Assembly (NCBI GenBank): GCA_937981515.1
Contig: CALJNY010000022.1
Location: forward strand, 1-23,262
DNA length: 23,262 nt
Source: an uncultured Collinsella sp.
GTDB taxonomy: Bacteria; Actinomycetota; Coriobacteriia; Coriobacteriales; Coriobacteriaceae
Direction: 5' to 3'
In this document: in pieces, positions 2,598 through 18,261 of the stretch
Layout: every line of letters starts with the position of its first letter
Position numbering within the stretch: position 1 is the first letter of the stretch
Position numbers and translations under genes: made by a program
The notes under the pieces: model-generated
Database searches by the model: none
Told to the model about the DNA's origin: nothing
The model's input: the letters and a program-made list of their open reading frames with translations, nothing else

Positions 2598-4445
2598 CTA
2601 CTCTACTGTGACACTCTTGGCCAGGTTGCGGGGCTGGTCGACGTCGCAACCGCGCAGGATGGCCACCTCGCGGGCGAGCAGCTGCAGCGGGACGCTCGCC
2701 GTGATGGGGCTGAACACGTCGCGGACGGCCGGCACGCGAATGATACAGTCGGCAATCTTGTTGATCTCCTCGTCACCCTCGGTGGCAACGACGATGACCT
2801 TGGCACCGCGCGCCTTGCACTCCATAAGGTTCGACACGGTCTTGTCGTAGGTGGCACTCTTTGTGGCCACGGCGATGACGGGGAAGCCTGGATCGATCAG
2901 CGCGATGGGACCGTGCTTCATCTCGCCGGCAGCATACGCCTCGGCATGCAGGTAGCTGACTTCCTTGAGCTTGAGTGCGCCCTCGTAGGAGATGGCAGCG
3001 CCCATACCGCGGCCCACGAACAGCGCCGACTGCGCATCCTTGCACAGCAGGGCGGCCTCGTGCACGGCCTCGGTCTGGGTATCCAAAATCCACTGGATCT
3101 GCTCGGCCGTATCGGAAAGTTCGCGGAACAGCATGCGCGCCTGCTTGGTGGTCAGACGGTACTTAACCTGCGCCAGCAGCAGAGCAAGCAACGTGAGGCT
3201 CACAACCTGACCGATGAAGCTCTTGGTCGAGGCGACGGCGATCTCCTTGTTGGCCTTGGTATAGATGACGCCGTCGCTCTCGCGCGCCACGGGGCTGCCC
3301 ACCACGTTGGTGATGCCAAAGACCTTGGCACCCTTGATGCGCGCATCGCGAATGGCGGCGAGGGTATCGGCCGTCTCGCCCGACTGGGACACGGCAACGA
3401 CGAGCGTCGTCGGCGTGATGATGGGGTTGCGGTAGCGGAACTCGCTGGCAGCCTCAACCTCGGTGGGAATGCGAGCCCAGCCCTCAATAAGGTTCTTTGC
3501 GATGAGGCCGGCGTGATAGCTGGTGCCGCAGGCGATCACGTAGACACGGTCGATGTCGTTGAGCTCCTCGAGGGACAGGCCCAGCTCATCGATGTCGAGC
3601 TCGCCGGCAGGCGCCATACGGCCAACCAGCGTGTCGCGCACGACGCGCGGCTGCTCGTGGATCTCCTTGAGCATAAAGTCAGGATAGCCGCCCTTTTCGG
3701 CCATGTCCAGATCCCAATCGATGTGGGTGACCTTGGGCACGATGACATTGCCGGCCTCGTCGGTGTACTCGACGCCCGCAGGCGTAAGCTTGGCAAACTG
3801 ACCGTCCTCGAGCACCACGACATCGCGGGTGGCGTCGATGAGCGCGATGACGTCGGAGGCAACGTAGGAGCCGGTCTCGCCCACGCCGACCACGATCGGG
3901 GAATCCTTACGGGCAACGGCGATCACGCCAGGCTCGTCGGCGCACACGGCGGCCAAGCCATAGGCGCCTACCACGTGGGTGCAAGCCTCGCGCACGGAGG
4001 CCATCAGGTCGTGCGTCTCGGCATAGGCCTCTTCGATCAGATGCGCGAAGACCTCCGTATCGGTCTCGCTCTTAAAGTGATGGCCGCGGCCCTCCAGCTC
4101 CTCGCGCAGTTCGGCGAAGTTCTCGATAATGCCGTTGTGGACGATGGCGATGCGACCGTCGCAGCTGGTGTGGGGATGAGCGTTAACGACGGAAGGCTTG
4201 CCGTGGGTAGCCCAACGGGTGTGACCGATACCGCAGGTTGCGTCGCTATCGATGTTGGAAAGCTCGCTCTCCAGGCCCGCGACCTTGCCCACGCGGCGGA
4301 TGACGTCGAGGTGCGCCGCGGCGCCCTCGCCCACCTCGAGCGCGACGCCCGAGGAGTCATAGCCGCGATACTCCATGCGCTTAAGGCCTGTGACCAGGAT
4401 GTTCTTTGCAATATCAGAGCCGGTGTAGCCAACAATTCCGCACAT
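2598..4445 (-). CDS. glmS: Glutamine--fructose-6-phosphate aminotransferase (isomerizing)
   Basis: GlmS makes glucosamine-6-phosphate from fructose-6-phosphate and glutamine, the first committed step to UDP-GlcNAc for peptidoglycan. The 615-residue length is typical. The protein starts MCGIVGYTG, so Cys2 becomes the N-terminal nucleophile of the class-II glutamine amidotransferase domain (about 1-220), with GHTRWATHG and HNGIIEN motifs. Two SIS sugar-isomerase domains follow (about 290-430 and 460-600), with CGTSYHAG, SQSGETADT and SLSTKSF-like sequence (VASTKSFIGQV), and the terminal PRNLAKSVTVE tail carries the conserved C-terminal lysine. The start is fixed by MCGI and an upstream AAGGGA. 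The upstream region has a TACAAT -10-like box and palindromic candidate operators. The conserved core of a glmS ribozyme is not seen. Confidence 0.97.
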   Translation of the reverse strand: MCGIVGYTGSDIAKNILVTGLKRMEYRGYDSSGVALEVGEGAAAHLDVIRRVGKVAGLESELSNIDSDATCGIGHTRWATHGKPSVVNAHPHTSCDGRIAIVHNGIIENFAELREELEGRGHHFKSETDTEVFAHLIEEAYAETHDLMASVREACTHVVGAYGLAAVCADEPGVIAVARKDSPIVVGVGETGSYVASDVIALIDATRDVVVLEDGQFAKLTPAGVEYTDEAGNVIVPKVTHIDWDLDMAEKGGYPDFMLKEIHEQPRVVRDTLVGRMAPAGELDIDELGLSLEELNDIDRVYVIACGTSYHAGLIAKNLIEGWARIPTEVEAASEFRYRNPIITPTTLVVAVSQSGETADTLAAIRDARIKGAKVFGITNVVGSPVARESDGVIYTKANKEIAVASTKSFIGQVVSLTLLALLLAQVKYRLTTKQARMLFRELSDTAEQIQWILDTQTEAVHEAALLCKDAQSALFVGRGMGAAISYEGALKLKEVSYLHAEAYAAGEMKHGPIALIDPGFPVIAVATKSATYDKTVSNLMECKARGAKVIVVATEGDEEINKIADCIIRVPAVRDVFSPITASVPLQLLAREVAILRGCDVDQPRNLAKSVTVE

Positions 4446-4519
4446 AGGATAAATCCCTTCGTTCGCGTGACTGCAAGACGTCCACGCACGGAAGGCGCTG
4501 AGACGTATAACGTTCGAGT

Positions 4520-4525
4520 ATTGTA
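4520..4525 (-). promoter_or_regulatory. Candidate -10 box for glmS
   Basis: On the minus strand the sequence reads GAGTACAATACTC, with TACAAT matching the -10 consensus at five of six positions. No good -35 is seen 17 bases upstream (ATATCA). That position overlaps the palindrome at 4547-4562, so the promoter may depend on, or be blocked by, a bound regulator. Confidence 0.45.
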
Positions 4526-4546
4526 CTCACGCAAGCGCAAGCTGAT

Positions 4547-4580
4547 ATACCAGAAGTGGTATCTTAACTTGGATACCACT
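4547..4580. promoter_or_regulatory. Overlapping palindromes upstream of glmS (candidate operators)
   Basis: Three copies of the half-site ATACCA or its complement TGGTAT lie in 34 bases: ATACCA (4547-4552), TGGTAT (4557-4562) and ATACCA (4573-4578). They form a 16-bp palindrome ATACCA-gaag-TGGTAT, and a wider one, AGTGGTATC (4555-4563) / GATACCACT (4572-4580), with an 8-base spacer. They sit where the -35 region of glmS would be. Which protein binds is unknown; the adjacent LacI regulator is one candidate, an unseen GntR/HutC-type amino-sugar regulator another. Confidence 0.5.
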
Positions 4581-4599
4581 CGATACACACACGTCCAGC

Positions 4600-4650
4600 C
4601 GGCCCAAACCACCACAATGGGGACAGGCACCTTTGTGGTGGTTTGGGCCG
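4600..4650 (+). repeat. Type B hairpin repeat, copy 1
   Basis: Perfect 18-bp arms CGGCCCAAACCACCACAA (4600-4617) and its complement (4633-4650) enclose a 15-base loop containing GGGGACAGGCACC. The inner part (ACCACCAC...GGGGACAGGCACCTTTGTGGTGGT) recurs in opposite orientation at 4834-4872. Confidence 0.9.
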
Positions 4651-4676
4651 AGGCGGCGCTCTGTCCCGGCGGAAGA

Positions 4677-4731
4677 TCTCGATCTGTAACATCTGGGGCT
4701 CTGGAAGTCGGCTTGGTGTTACAGATCGAGA
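4677..4731. repeat. Type C inverted pair 1
   Basis: TCTCGATCTGTAACA (4677-4691) and its exact complement TGTTACAGATCGAGA (4717-4731), separated by 25 bases. A near copy of the pair follows at 4756-4814. No coding potential is seen inside. Confidence 0.85.
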
Positions 4732-4755
4732 CATTGCGGTTCGGCCCCAGCACTA

Positions 4756-4814
4756 TGTCTCGGTCTGTAACAGGTAGAGCCGGTTTTGCCGTCCAGATGT
4801 TACAGATCGAGACA
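4756..4814. repeat. Type C inverted pair 2
   Basis: TGTCTCGGTCTGTAACA (4756-4772) pairs with TGTTACAGATCGAGACA (4798-4814) except for one G-T position, which would still pair as G-U in RNA. This is the second copy of the type C pair at 4677-4731, with a different 25-base interior. Confidence 0.85.
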
Positions 4815-4833
4815 ATTGAAGGTCCGGGCAGCT

Positions 4834-4872
4834 CAAACCACCACAAAGGTGCCTGTCCCCTTCGTGGTGGTC
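4834..4872 (-). repeat. Type B hairpin repeat, copy 2 (opposite orientation)
   Basis: On the minus strand this reads ACCACCACGAAGGGGACAGG, then CACCTTTGTGGTGGTTTG, matching the inner part of the type B copy at 4600-4650. The two B copies face each other and enclose the two type C pairs, giving the cluster a mirror-like layout. Confidence 0.85.
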
Positions 4873-4884
4873 GCGCTGGCAACG

Positions 4885-4935
4885 GCGTTTACCCAGATAA
4901 AACCTGCCAAAATAAACCTGTCCCTAATTGGCAGG
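4885..4935 (-). repeat. Type A 51-bp hairpin repeat, copy 2
   Basis: On the minus strand: CCTGCCAATTAGGGACAGG, TTTATTTTGGCAGG, then TTTTATCTGGGTAAACGC. It differs from the copy at 2487-2537 by two bases in the left arm (AATT for AAAA) and in the tail. Its outer end sits three bases from the -35 element of the LacI-family gene. Confidence 0.9.
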
Positions 4936-4937
4936 TT

Positions 4938-4968
4938 TTGACACCCTAGGGGCGGGCGATGCTACAAT
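4938..4968 (+). promoter_or_regulatory. Promoter of the LacI-family gene
   Basis: A perfect -35 TTGACA (4938-4943) and a -10 TACAAT (4963-4968) are separated by 19 bases, slightly long. Transcription would begin near 4975. This decides the gene start: an in-frame ATG at 4959 lies inside the promoter, so translation should begin at 5004. Confidence 0.7.
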
Positions 4969-4979
4969 CTGGCTTGTAC

Positions 4980-4993
4980 TTGAAACGCATCAA
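4980..4993. promoter_or_regulatory. Candidate LacI-family operator (autoregulatory)
   Basis: TTGAAACGCATCAA has four-base arms TTGA/TCAA around a central CG, the usual symmetry of LacI-family operators. It lies just after the predicted transcription start and touches the ribosome site AAAGGGG, so a bound repressor would block its own gene. The regulator assignment is inference. Confidence 0.45.
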
Positions 4994-5003
4994 AGGGGCC
5001 GCT

Positions 5004-6116
5004 ATGGCAAAGGTAAATATCAGCGACGTCGCGCGCGAGGCAGGGGTTTCGCTGGGCACGGTTTCCAACGCACTCAACCACCCCGAAAAGCTGCGCCCCG
5101 AGACCCTCAAACTCATCAACGAGACCATCAATCGCCTTGGCTACCTGCCCAACCAAAGCGCCCGTCAGCTCGCGGGCGGCACCACCAAGTCCTTTGGCCT
5201 GGTCCTTCCCCGTCTCGACCACGGTTTTTCGCTCCAAATTGCCAGCGGCGCCCATAACGAGGCCCGCAAGCACGGTTACGACCTGCTCATCGCCAACGCC
5301 GATAACGACGATATTCTCCAGGACCATTACCTGCGCTACTTTATGGGCACGCAAATGTCCGGCGTCATGGTTCAGCCCATGGCGTCCCCCGACTGGCACC
5401 CCGCAACGACCAAGATGCCCGTGCCGATCGTCCATCTGGACATCCACTGCTCCGAGCCCGGTTACTACGTGGCCGCCGACAACGAGGCACAGGGGCGCAT
5501 TATCGCCGAGCTCGCCGTCGCCCGCGGCGCACGCCATATCACCGTTGTGGGCAGAGCGGCATTCATGCAGCTCACCCTGCGCGTACTTGGCATTCACAAG
5601 GCCCTCGCCCTGCATCCCGATATCAAAATTGAAGTCATTGACGCCGGAGAGTGGAATACCGCAGCCGACGGCTACAGCATTGGCGCTCAGATTGCCGGGC
5701 GCCCTGCCGACGAACGCCCCGATTTTGTCGTCGGCCTGACCGACGTGTTAGCCTCGGGCGTTATCTCGGCATTGGTCGACAAAGGCATCTCCGTCCCCGA
5801 GCAGGTTCGCGTGGCCGGATGCGACGGCAACCCACTCGCTTGGAGCGGGTCGGTCCCCCTCACCACGGTGGCACCGCCGGGTTACGAAATTGGCCGCAAG
5901 GGCGTTCAGTTGCTGATGGAGCAGATTGAGAACAAAGCCCCGGCAAAGACCAAGCATATCCGCGTCGGCTCTGCGGCGCGCACCGTCGCCGCAGTCACCA
6001 CCGCGGAGGATATCAACCGCCAAGAACTCGTGCGGCCGTTCCTCCTCGAGCGCGCCAGCACCCAGGCAAGCAACCACGCCGAAGCCACCGCCATCAACCT
6101 CGGCGCGTATCTATAG
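5004..6116 (+). CDS. LacI-family transcriptional regulator
   Basis: A 370-residue regulator. The N-terminal helix-turn-helix and hinge are canonical (ISDVAREAGVSLGTVSNALN at 6-25, then RPETLKLINETINRLGYLPN and QSARQLAGG). A periplasmic-binding-protein-like sugar domain follows from about residue 63, with the usual VAGCDGNPLA near 280 and LTTVAPPGYEIGRKGVQLLM near 297. Start 5004 is chosen because of AAAGGGG five to six bases upstream and because the promoter lies over the earlier in-frame ATG. A C-terminal tail of about 30 residues extends beyond the usual domain end. It is divergent from glmS across the repeat cluster and has no sugar operon beside it, so its effector is unknown; control of itself and possibly of glmS is inference. 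Confidence 0.93.
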   Translation: MAKVNISDVAREAGVSLGTVSNALNHPEKLRPETLKLINETINRLGYLPNQSARQLAGGTTKSFGLVLPRLDHGFSLQIASGAHNEARKHGYDLLIANADNDDILQDHYLRYFMGTQMSGVMVQPMASPDWHPATTKMPVPIVHLDIHCSEPGYYVAADNEAQGRIIAELAVARGARHITVVGRAAFMQLTLRVLGIHKALALHPDIKIEVIDAGEWNTAADGYSIGAQIAGRPADERPDFVVGLTDVLASGVISALVDKGISVPEQVRVAGCDGNPLAWSGSVPLTTVAPPGYEIGRKGVQLLMEQIENKAPAKTKHIRVGSAARTVAAVTTAEDINRQELVRPFLLERASTQASNHAEATAINLGAYL

Positions 6117-8043: not shown

Positions 8044-8312
8044 CACGTCACCTTACCGCACCCGGAGCCCGCTCGCTCGCATATGCTCAACCTGGACTGC
8101 GTTAACTGACCCGCCAAAAAGGGACAAGTTTATTTTGGCAGGTTTTATCTGGGGAAATGCAGAATAGCTCCATATGCACAACCGCCGCAGCTCCATATGA
8201 GGTAAATGAATCCGTAGCGTTTGTCCCAAATCTTAAGTATTTGTTCGACAGAACGGCCCCTGCCGGCTCCTGCTAGACTGGTAGATTCCCAACCGTCCAT
8301 CCAGGAGCCTCA
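8044..8312 (+). other. Intergenic leader before the endonuclease gene
   Basis: No gene is seen here. Contents are a type A repeat (8110-8160), a direct repeat AGCTCCATATG (8166-8176 and 8189-8199, 23 bases apart), and close to the gene a TGCTAGACT extended -10-like box (about 8271-8279) without a clear -35. Confidence 0.5.
8110..8160 (+). repeat. Type A 51-bp hairpin repeat, copy 3
   Basis: CCCGCCAAAAAGGGACAAG, TTTATTTTGGCAGG, then TTTTATCTGGGGAAATGC. It is nearly identical to the copy at 2487-2537: one change in the left arm (CCCGCC for CCTGCC), one in the loop, one in the tail. It is not next to a gene end, so here a terminator role is less likely. Confidence 0.9.
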
Positions 8313-14175: not shown

Positions 14176-14312
14176 TTGCCCGCTGGGCTCCGGGGCGGGG
14201 GTTAAGTTTCCTGCTCTACAGTCCTGCTCACGACGGAGGCCACATTAAGTGGCCTCCTGTTCGTGCGGAACTCGCGATAAACTTAACCCCCGCCCCGGAG
14301 CCCAGCGGGCAA
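14176..14312. repeat. 137-bp element with perfect 34-bp inverted repeats and a nested hairpin
   Basis: The left arm 14176-14209 (starts TTGCCCGCTGGG, ends GGTTAAGTTT) is the exact reverse complement of the right arm 14279-14312. Between them are 69 bases holding a smaller hairpin, GGAGGCCAC (14235-14243) / GTGGCCTCC (14249-14257), loop ATTAA. Open frames crossing it look spurious. A MITE-like non-autonomous element or a large structured terminator between the divergent genes are both possible. Confidence 0.85.
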
Positions 14313-18120: not shown

Positions 18121-18180
18121 CTGTTCCCCTTTCGCATAGGCGCTATTGTACGCTTTAGTCGGGAAAAGCGCCGCAGCAAT

Positions 18181-18240
18181 GTTGATTGGGGACAGACTTA
18201 AATGCGTGAAAACGCTCATTTAAGTCTGTCCCCAATCAAC
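18181..18240. repeat. Type D 60-base near-perfect hairpin
   Basis: Arms GTTGATTGGGGACAGACTTA plus AATG (18181-18204) and the exact complement (18217-18240) form 24 pairs. Inside, GCGT/ACGC continues the stem after a two-base bulge and closes on a GAAA tetraloop (18208-18211). GGGGACAG appears on both strands, the core also found in type A and B repeats. It lies between the aminotransferase promoter and the ftsH terminator. Confidence 0.9.
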
Positions 18241-18261
18241 AGATGGCCCCATATCGCTCAA

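Follow-up and report, generated by a model that had tools for sequence, protein, structure and literature searches.

A BIME-like mosaic of hairpin repeats between glmS and a LacI-family regulator gene of Collinsella, with B hairpins as allele breakpoints

REP/BIME repeats are short intergenic palindromes that occur in many copies, form alternating clusters of mixed families and are targets of insertion sequences (IS). As far as the accessible parts of the cited papers go, REP clusters are recombination hot spots in Pseudomonas fluorescens SBW25 (PMC11708052), IS elements insert into REPs (Tobes and Pareja 2006, PMC1525189), RAYT genes are flanked by inverted REPs (PMC2817692), and repeats with the consensus GGGGWSAS are the terminal repeats (TIRs) beside TIRYT transposase genes (Di Nocera et al. 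2013, PMC3733652); the same consensus is cited in PMC6006769, there with subclass 2.1. The repeats described here, named A, B and C, share all of the listed features of REP/BIME repeats, and an IS with the ends TGAACTGC/GCAGTTCA sits in B loops as other IS sit in REPs; however, their copies number tens, not hundreds, and no GTAG/CGTC tag was seen at the foot of the B copies read by eye at the glmS-lacI gap and the other compared loci. They come from Collinsella, an abundant genus of the human gut.

According to the accessible text on the TIRs of TIRYT (PMC3733652), the likeness to them lies in the sequence GGGGACAG, which fits GGGGWSAS, in repeats that stand inverted on both sides of a Y1 gene, and in single, dimeric and grouped copies elsewhere; unlike these TIRs, in A and B the motif lies in the loop that tops a long stem, and no copy of either was found beside a transposase gene. 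That text contains no mention of Collinsella. No description of A, B or C repeats in Collinsella was found in the literature searched (subscription papers are mostly outside its coverage), and a text search for the letters of GGGGACAG gave, among the matches listed, only papers on other subjects. REP-mediated rearrangement is already known, reportedly also from Shyamala et al. 1990; the present case differs from it in that many species-level alleles have the same hairpins edging replaced content, and in the presence of hybrid single hairpins. If B hairpins do determine where gene loss and exchange begin and end, part of the accessory content of Collinsella obeys a simple, testable rule, and REP-type repeats shape gene content across species, beyond laboratory rearrangements.

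The cluster and its repeat families

The window (the whole stretch of 23,262 nucleotides that was analysed) has G001 as its nearest genome, with 44% of sampled 31-letter words in common. The cluster is bordered on the left by a minus-strand ORF (2598-4445), which is presumably glmS and whose relatives were retrieved with its translation (best named relative: Collinsella sp. AK_207A, 84% identity), and on the right by a plus-strand LacI-family regulator gene (5004-6116; Pfam LacI and Peripla_BP domains; start from sequence reading). An earlier note, made from the sequence alone, had called these two divergent regulatory genes, which is right for the LacI-family gene, whereas glmS is an enzyme gene. 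The five elements that it had listed, B(+), C, C, B(-) and A(-), were all recovered at their positions, and the two B copies do face each other around two near-identical C pairs.

The first B hairpin, B1 (4600-4650, plus strand), is an inverted repeat (4600-4620/4630-4650, 95% complementary) with the plus-strand loop GGGGACAGGCACC; B2 (4831-4871, minus strand) is the inverse of B1 over 41 nt (93% complementary) and has GGGACAG on the minus strand. Between them lie C1 (4677-4731; arms 4677-4691 and 4717-4731) and, 26 nt past it, C2 (4758-4812; arms 4758-4772 and 4798-4812), each with an inner spacer of 25 nt, so that the two have common 15-17-nt arms around 25-nt loops. The A hairpin (4898-4939) carries the loop core GGGACAGG on the minus strand and is the inverse of two plus-strand A copies at 2485-2537, 3' of a GntR-family regulator gene (92% complementary to 4885-4937), and at 8106-8161 (93% identity to 2483-2538). 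Folded as single-stranded DNA, B1 reached -26.3 kcal/mol (z -8.8), and z was -5.8 for C1, -6.4 for C2 and -6.8 for A (0 of 200 shuffles as stable in each of the four), with a weaker value for B2 (z -2.9, 1 of 200 shuffles as stable); the entire segment 4599-4875 folded into a single nested hairpin, a quasi-palindrome, at -98.1 kcal/mol (z -15.0, 0 of 200).

Regarding the 65 genomes of the family, the exact B hairpin pattern was present in 24 and the exact C pattern in 23, in one genus of six only, whereas the reversed control patterns of B and C were found in none; the repeats are therefore beyond chance, and the concern of the earlier note that they might occur only at this spot fell away. 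Exact B copies numbered 5-20 per genome, with the exception of G016 and G038, which had one. Among the most frequent 14-base words of G003, a complete genome, are words from A, B and C, as well as from other repeats. In this genome a loose pattern gave 87 B-like hairpins, and the ORFs called by a crude ORF caller contained 3 of 38 B copies and 0 of 18 C arrays. B is thus an intergenic repeated palindrome and the C arrays, with 1-5 hairpins each, have the alternating orientation and tandem units of REP/BIME arrays, which bears out the description of the cluster as a BIME-like, non-coding array, namely a mosaic of dispersed hairpin repeats.

The loops of A and B have the common core GGG(G)ACAG. 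The form GGGGACAG is present in B and in a further repeat of the window, an inverted pair of GGGGACAGACTTAAATG (18180-18241; perfect 25-nt inverted repeat); in A the motif is limited to GGGACAG, preceded by A or T. (Note that many of the 278 occurrences of GGGACAG in G003 lie in coding-like sequence, and that, among the matches listed, it also stands in loops of other hairpins with unrelated stems.) The motif of the pair at 18180-18241, which looks like a non-autonomous dimer, is that flanking a Y1 gene (Pfam Y1_Tnp) in G003 and G001. In both genomes one further hairpin family with the core of A and B (GGGGACAGAC; GGGGACAGACTTA with short ATGAGT-type arms) has two inverted copies on each side of this transposase gene; GGGGACAG pairs were present beside both orthologues checked. 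Because no A or B hairpin adjoined Y1 genes at six loci (four scanned, two by eye), we only infer a past dispersal of A and B by a transposase of the Y1 (RAYT/TIRYT) type.

The inner spacers of the C hairpins in G003 measured 25 nt in 41 of 44 cases (one of 26; two of zero length, which are overlapping hits), and the outer spacers (n = 28) 25 nt in 18, 26 in nine and 24 in one. An RNA hairpin was rejected as a reading of C, because arm covariation was absent from 41 C hairpins (16.24 of 20 pairs complementary vs 16.11 with shuffled partners, p 0.28); the Rfam scan of the window gave no matches. The inner spacers were less complementary than shuffled partners (3.85 vs 4.96 of 12), to which single-base runs across the centre contribute. 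A CRISPR-like array was also rejected, as the arms alternate in orientation and the spacers have a common weak TAG...CTA pattern. In orthologous arrays (three loci, four alignments), variable columns amounted to 20 of 300 in C arms vs 75 of 403 in spacers (Fisher p 3.5e-6; the columns are not independent, and the arms were placed from a reference row). The fixed 40-base phasing, the conserved arms and the lack of pairing covariation point to a candidate DNA-binding protein, for which the arms may be individually conserved double-stranded sites. Of the 36 array sides in G003, nine have a B copy no more than 100 bases away, as against a mean of 0.55 and a maximum of 5 in 5000 permutations; 16 of the 18 arrays lie at 1.05-2.06 Mb, with the skew minimum at 1.76 Mb, a weak indication that C arrays may be nearer the origin.

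Alleles of the gap and of other loci

A match to the glmS leader was found in 32 of 43 genomes of the genus; 22 with at least 213 of 219 bases were used, and ten with only 29-69 leader bases in common were left out. The gaps of these distant genomes were not alignable, and no inverted repeat of at least 12 nt was present in the five of them that were scanned; an ordinary leader conserved base for base in distant relatives, which the earlier note had considered as the opposite case, is therefore not what is seen. The 22 relatives and the window form a set of 23 alleles. B-C-C-B is present in five (window, G035, G019, G003, G004), a single B in 14, and transporter genes (solute-binding protein and permease) between two B copies in three (G001 by Pfam SBP_bac_3 and BPD_transp_1, G032 by edges of the same kind, G034 by length and repeat layout only). 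The remaining allele, G018, has an IS inside the B loop with a 3-base CAG repeat at the IS ends.

Homology between the window and G001 extends to 4643, at the end of B1, and restarts at 4835, at the start of B2, the segment 4644-4834 being exchanged as a block for the transporter genes. In the transporter alleles both B copies are plus, not inverted, as they are at locus 6, and a strict mirror rule was rejected on these grounds. The same cargo was not found relocated to another place in G003, the one genome tested, which contained only relatives of 28-37%. The IS of about 1.5 kb with the ends TGAACTGC/GCAGTTCA occupies B loops at four places in G003 (555249-556742, 1628699-1630208, 1675077-1676580 and 1917217-1918710) and at three in G018, where the copies are partly masked. 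The landing site suggested for the cluster is supported, since an IS occupies the B loop of G018 at this very gap, but its clean insertion is not: no empty site occurs in any of the 22 close relatives, and the alleles differ at or between the B hairpins. A MITE inserted as a unit, for which an empty site and a target duplication were looked for, was likewise rejected.

Single-B alleles were compared by their flanks, a hybrid being a single B that has, to its left, the sequence found outside B1 and, to its right, the sequence found outside B2. Over three loci, 24 of 28 single-B alleles were such hybrids: 10 of 14 at glmS-lacI (G033, G011, G012 and G031 being no simple hybrids), 6 of 6 at locus 2 (G003, 363 kb) and 8 of 8 at locus 3 (G003, 1,806 kb). 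Some of the calls were close, the closest being that of G021 at locus 2 (right flank 5 vs 3). The junction lies in the left arm in nine of the glmS-lacI hybrids, which have the B2-type (minus) loop, and in the right arm in the tenth, G006, which has the B1-type (plus) loop; at locus 3, four loops are minus and four are plus.

Locus 2 was matched in 22 of 43 genomes (the distant G020 was excluded), with B-C-B in 11, a single B in six, and other content in G004, G031 and G018 (IS); in G002 the flanks stand about 38 kb apart. The gene-bearing alleles G004, G031 and G002 have B at the left edge only. Locus 3 was matched in 43 of 43 genomes; within the 22 close relatives (G034, G010 and G012 are split between contigs and not resolved) it showed B-C-B in six, a single B in eight, and 3.4-14.9 kb in G032, G004, G021, G007 and G018, with gene products of about 400-470, 530-820 and 2,200 residues. 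The B-C-C-C-B alleles of G003 and G006 at this locus correspond to the two ends of the gene-bearing alleles of G004 and G032, with 4 bases of overlap. At locus 4, inserts of 4.4-4.6 kb in G006, G024 and G004 lie within a C array and have no B at the edges. When 27 G001 loci bearing A, B or C (some overlapping) were aligned to G003, at least 10 aligned as one unbroken block. Two further hybrids were seen: at one locus, G001 has two C hairpins between an arm and a B where G003 has a single B; at the other, G003 has B copies some 5 kb from each other, both of them plus, where G001 has a single B.

Explanations of the allele differences

At several loci the alleles break at B hairpins, and the majority of single-B alleles join the two outer flanks as hybrids. 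The cluster is probably a BIME-like mosaic in which B hairpins serve as breakpoints for the loss or exchange of intergenic modules. Once A and B had been dispersed by a Y1 transposase, two B hairpins, which repeat each other's arms in both direct and inverted orientation, would recombine or slip, the content between them (C arrays, genes) would be lost and one hybrid B would be left; replacement of content would probably be import via flanking homology. The window would represent an uncollapsed B-C-C-B allele. Evidence for this reading comes from the homology edges of the window and G001, the hybrids at three loci and the two further ones, the matching ends of the locus 3 alleles, the B copies beside C arrays and the GGGGACAG pairs around the Y1 gene. 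Against it count the reversible junctions, the four single-B alleles that are no simple hybrids, the close hybrid calls, the gene-bearing alleles of locus 2 with B on the left only, the inserts inside the C array of locus 4, the B pairs that are both plus, the unbroken G001 loci and the lack of A or B hairpins beside the Y1 genes viewed. Arm-directed recombination predicts junctions in both arms, and the loops at glmS-lacI (9 minus, 1 plus) and locus 3 (4 and 4) agree. Use of either arm agrees with recombination or slippage, but not with cutting at one site, which argues against the reading that a Y1 enzyme (RAYT/TIRYT-type) cleaves B hairpins and moves B-bounded units in or out. That reading gains from the GGGGACAG motif common to B and the repeats around the Y1 gene, from relatives of the enzyme in 37 of 43 genomes of the genus and from the ability of TnpA-REP to cleave and rejoin REPs, as stated in the accessible part of PMC6006769. 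We nevertheless regard it as unlikely: a 93-100% orthologue of the flanked enzyme is present in just 11 of 43 genomes, one with a stop, no full one is present in the window-like genomes G004, G019 and G035, and no A or B hairpin was seen beside a Y1 gene at the six loci viewed. Short fragments of the flanked transposase occur in G005, G009, G018, G019 and G035, as if it were decaying in the genus.

A hybrid junction is reversible and so cannot separate loss from gain. It fits equally well if the single B is older and B-bounded units (C arrays, genes) came in by recombination at B, and B-C-C-B takes four changes on the tree of the glmS and lacI flanks, a number as low in 122 of 500 shuffles. 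This tree has a midpoint root, with 4 of 20 inner branches starred, 12 open and the bootstrap not settled; the allele states, with the IS allele of G018 pooled with the transporter alleles as cargo, need eight changes (least possible three). Gain appears quite unlikely to us, as B-C-C-B rows sit in several separate places with the nine-genome minus-loop single-B group nested among them (on this weak tree), the shorter alleles of locus 3 are subsets of the longer ones, and the transporter cargo has only distant relatives elsewhere in the one genome tested. Loss of content is favoured over gain, not shown. Very improbable is a functional element under selection in the glmS-lacI gap (nucleoid, gyrase or insulator), with incidental allele differences. 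Such a site would account for the low variability of the C arms and the fixed spacer lengths, but C and one B are missing from 14 of the 23 alleles, the C arms do not covary, and the insulator proposed earlier gains no support from 4400-5100, where no terminator-like site was found. Beside the preferred reading of B hairpins as breakpoints, it is conceivable, if improbable, that they are integrase-free adaptors, a B-bounded module leaving as a circle and re-entering at any B, with C as new phased protein-binding arrays travelling along; through the B set, any such intergenic gene module could then be swapped from site to site and from species to species.

Motifs beside the flanking genes

Outside the cluster, perfect 34-nt inverted repeats without relation to A, B or C lie at 14176-14209 and 14279-14312, 69 bases apart. 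A TTGACA...TACAAT pair, 19 bases apart, adjoins the A hairpin 5' of the LacI-family gene (4935-4970) and is absent from the output of a promoter scan with spacings of 16-18; the alleles of G003 and G004 are 17 bases shorter there and have no TTGACA. The glmS leader contains the palindromes ATACCA-GAAG-TGGTAT (4547-4562) and GGTATC-N8-GATACC (4558-4577), which may serve as operators for the GntR-family regulator encoded nearby (1785-2486; Pfam GntR and FCD). Directly 5' of the LacI-family gene stands TTGAAACGCATCAA (4980-4993), presumably of LacI-family operator shape, and its position hints at self-regulation of that gene.
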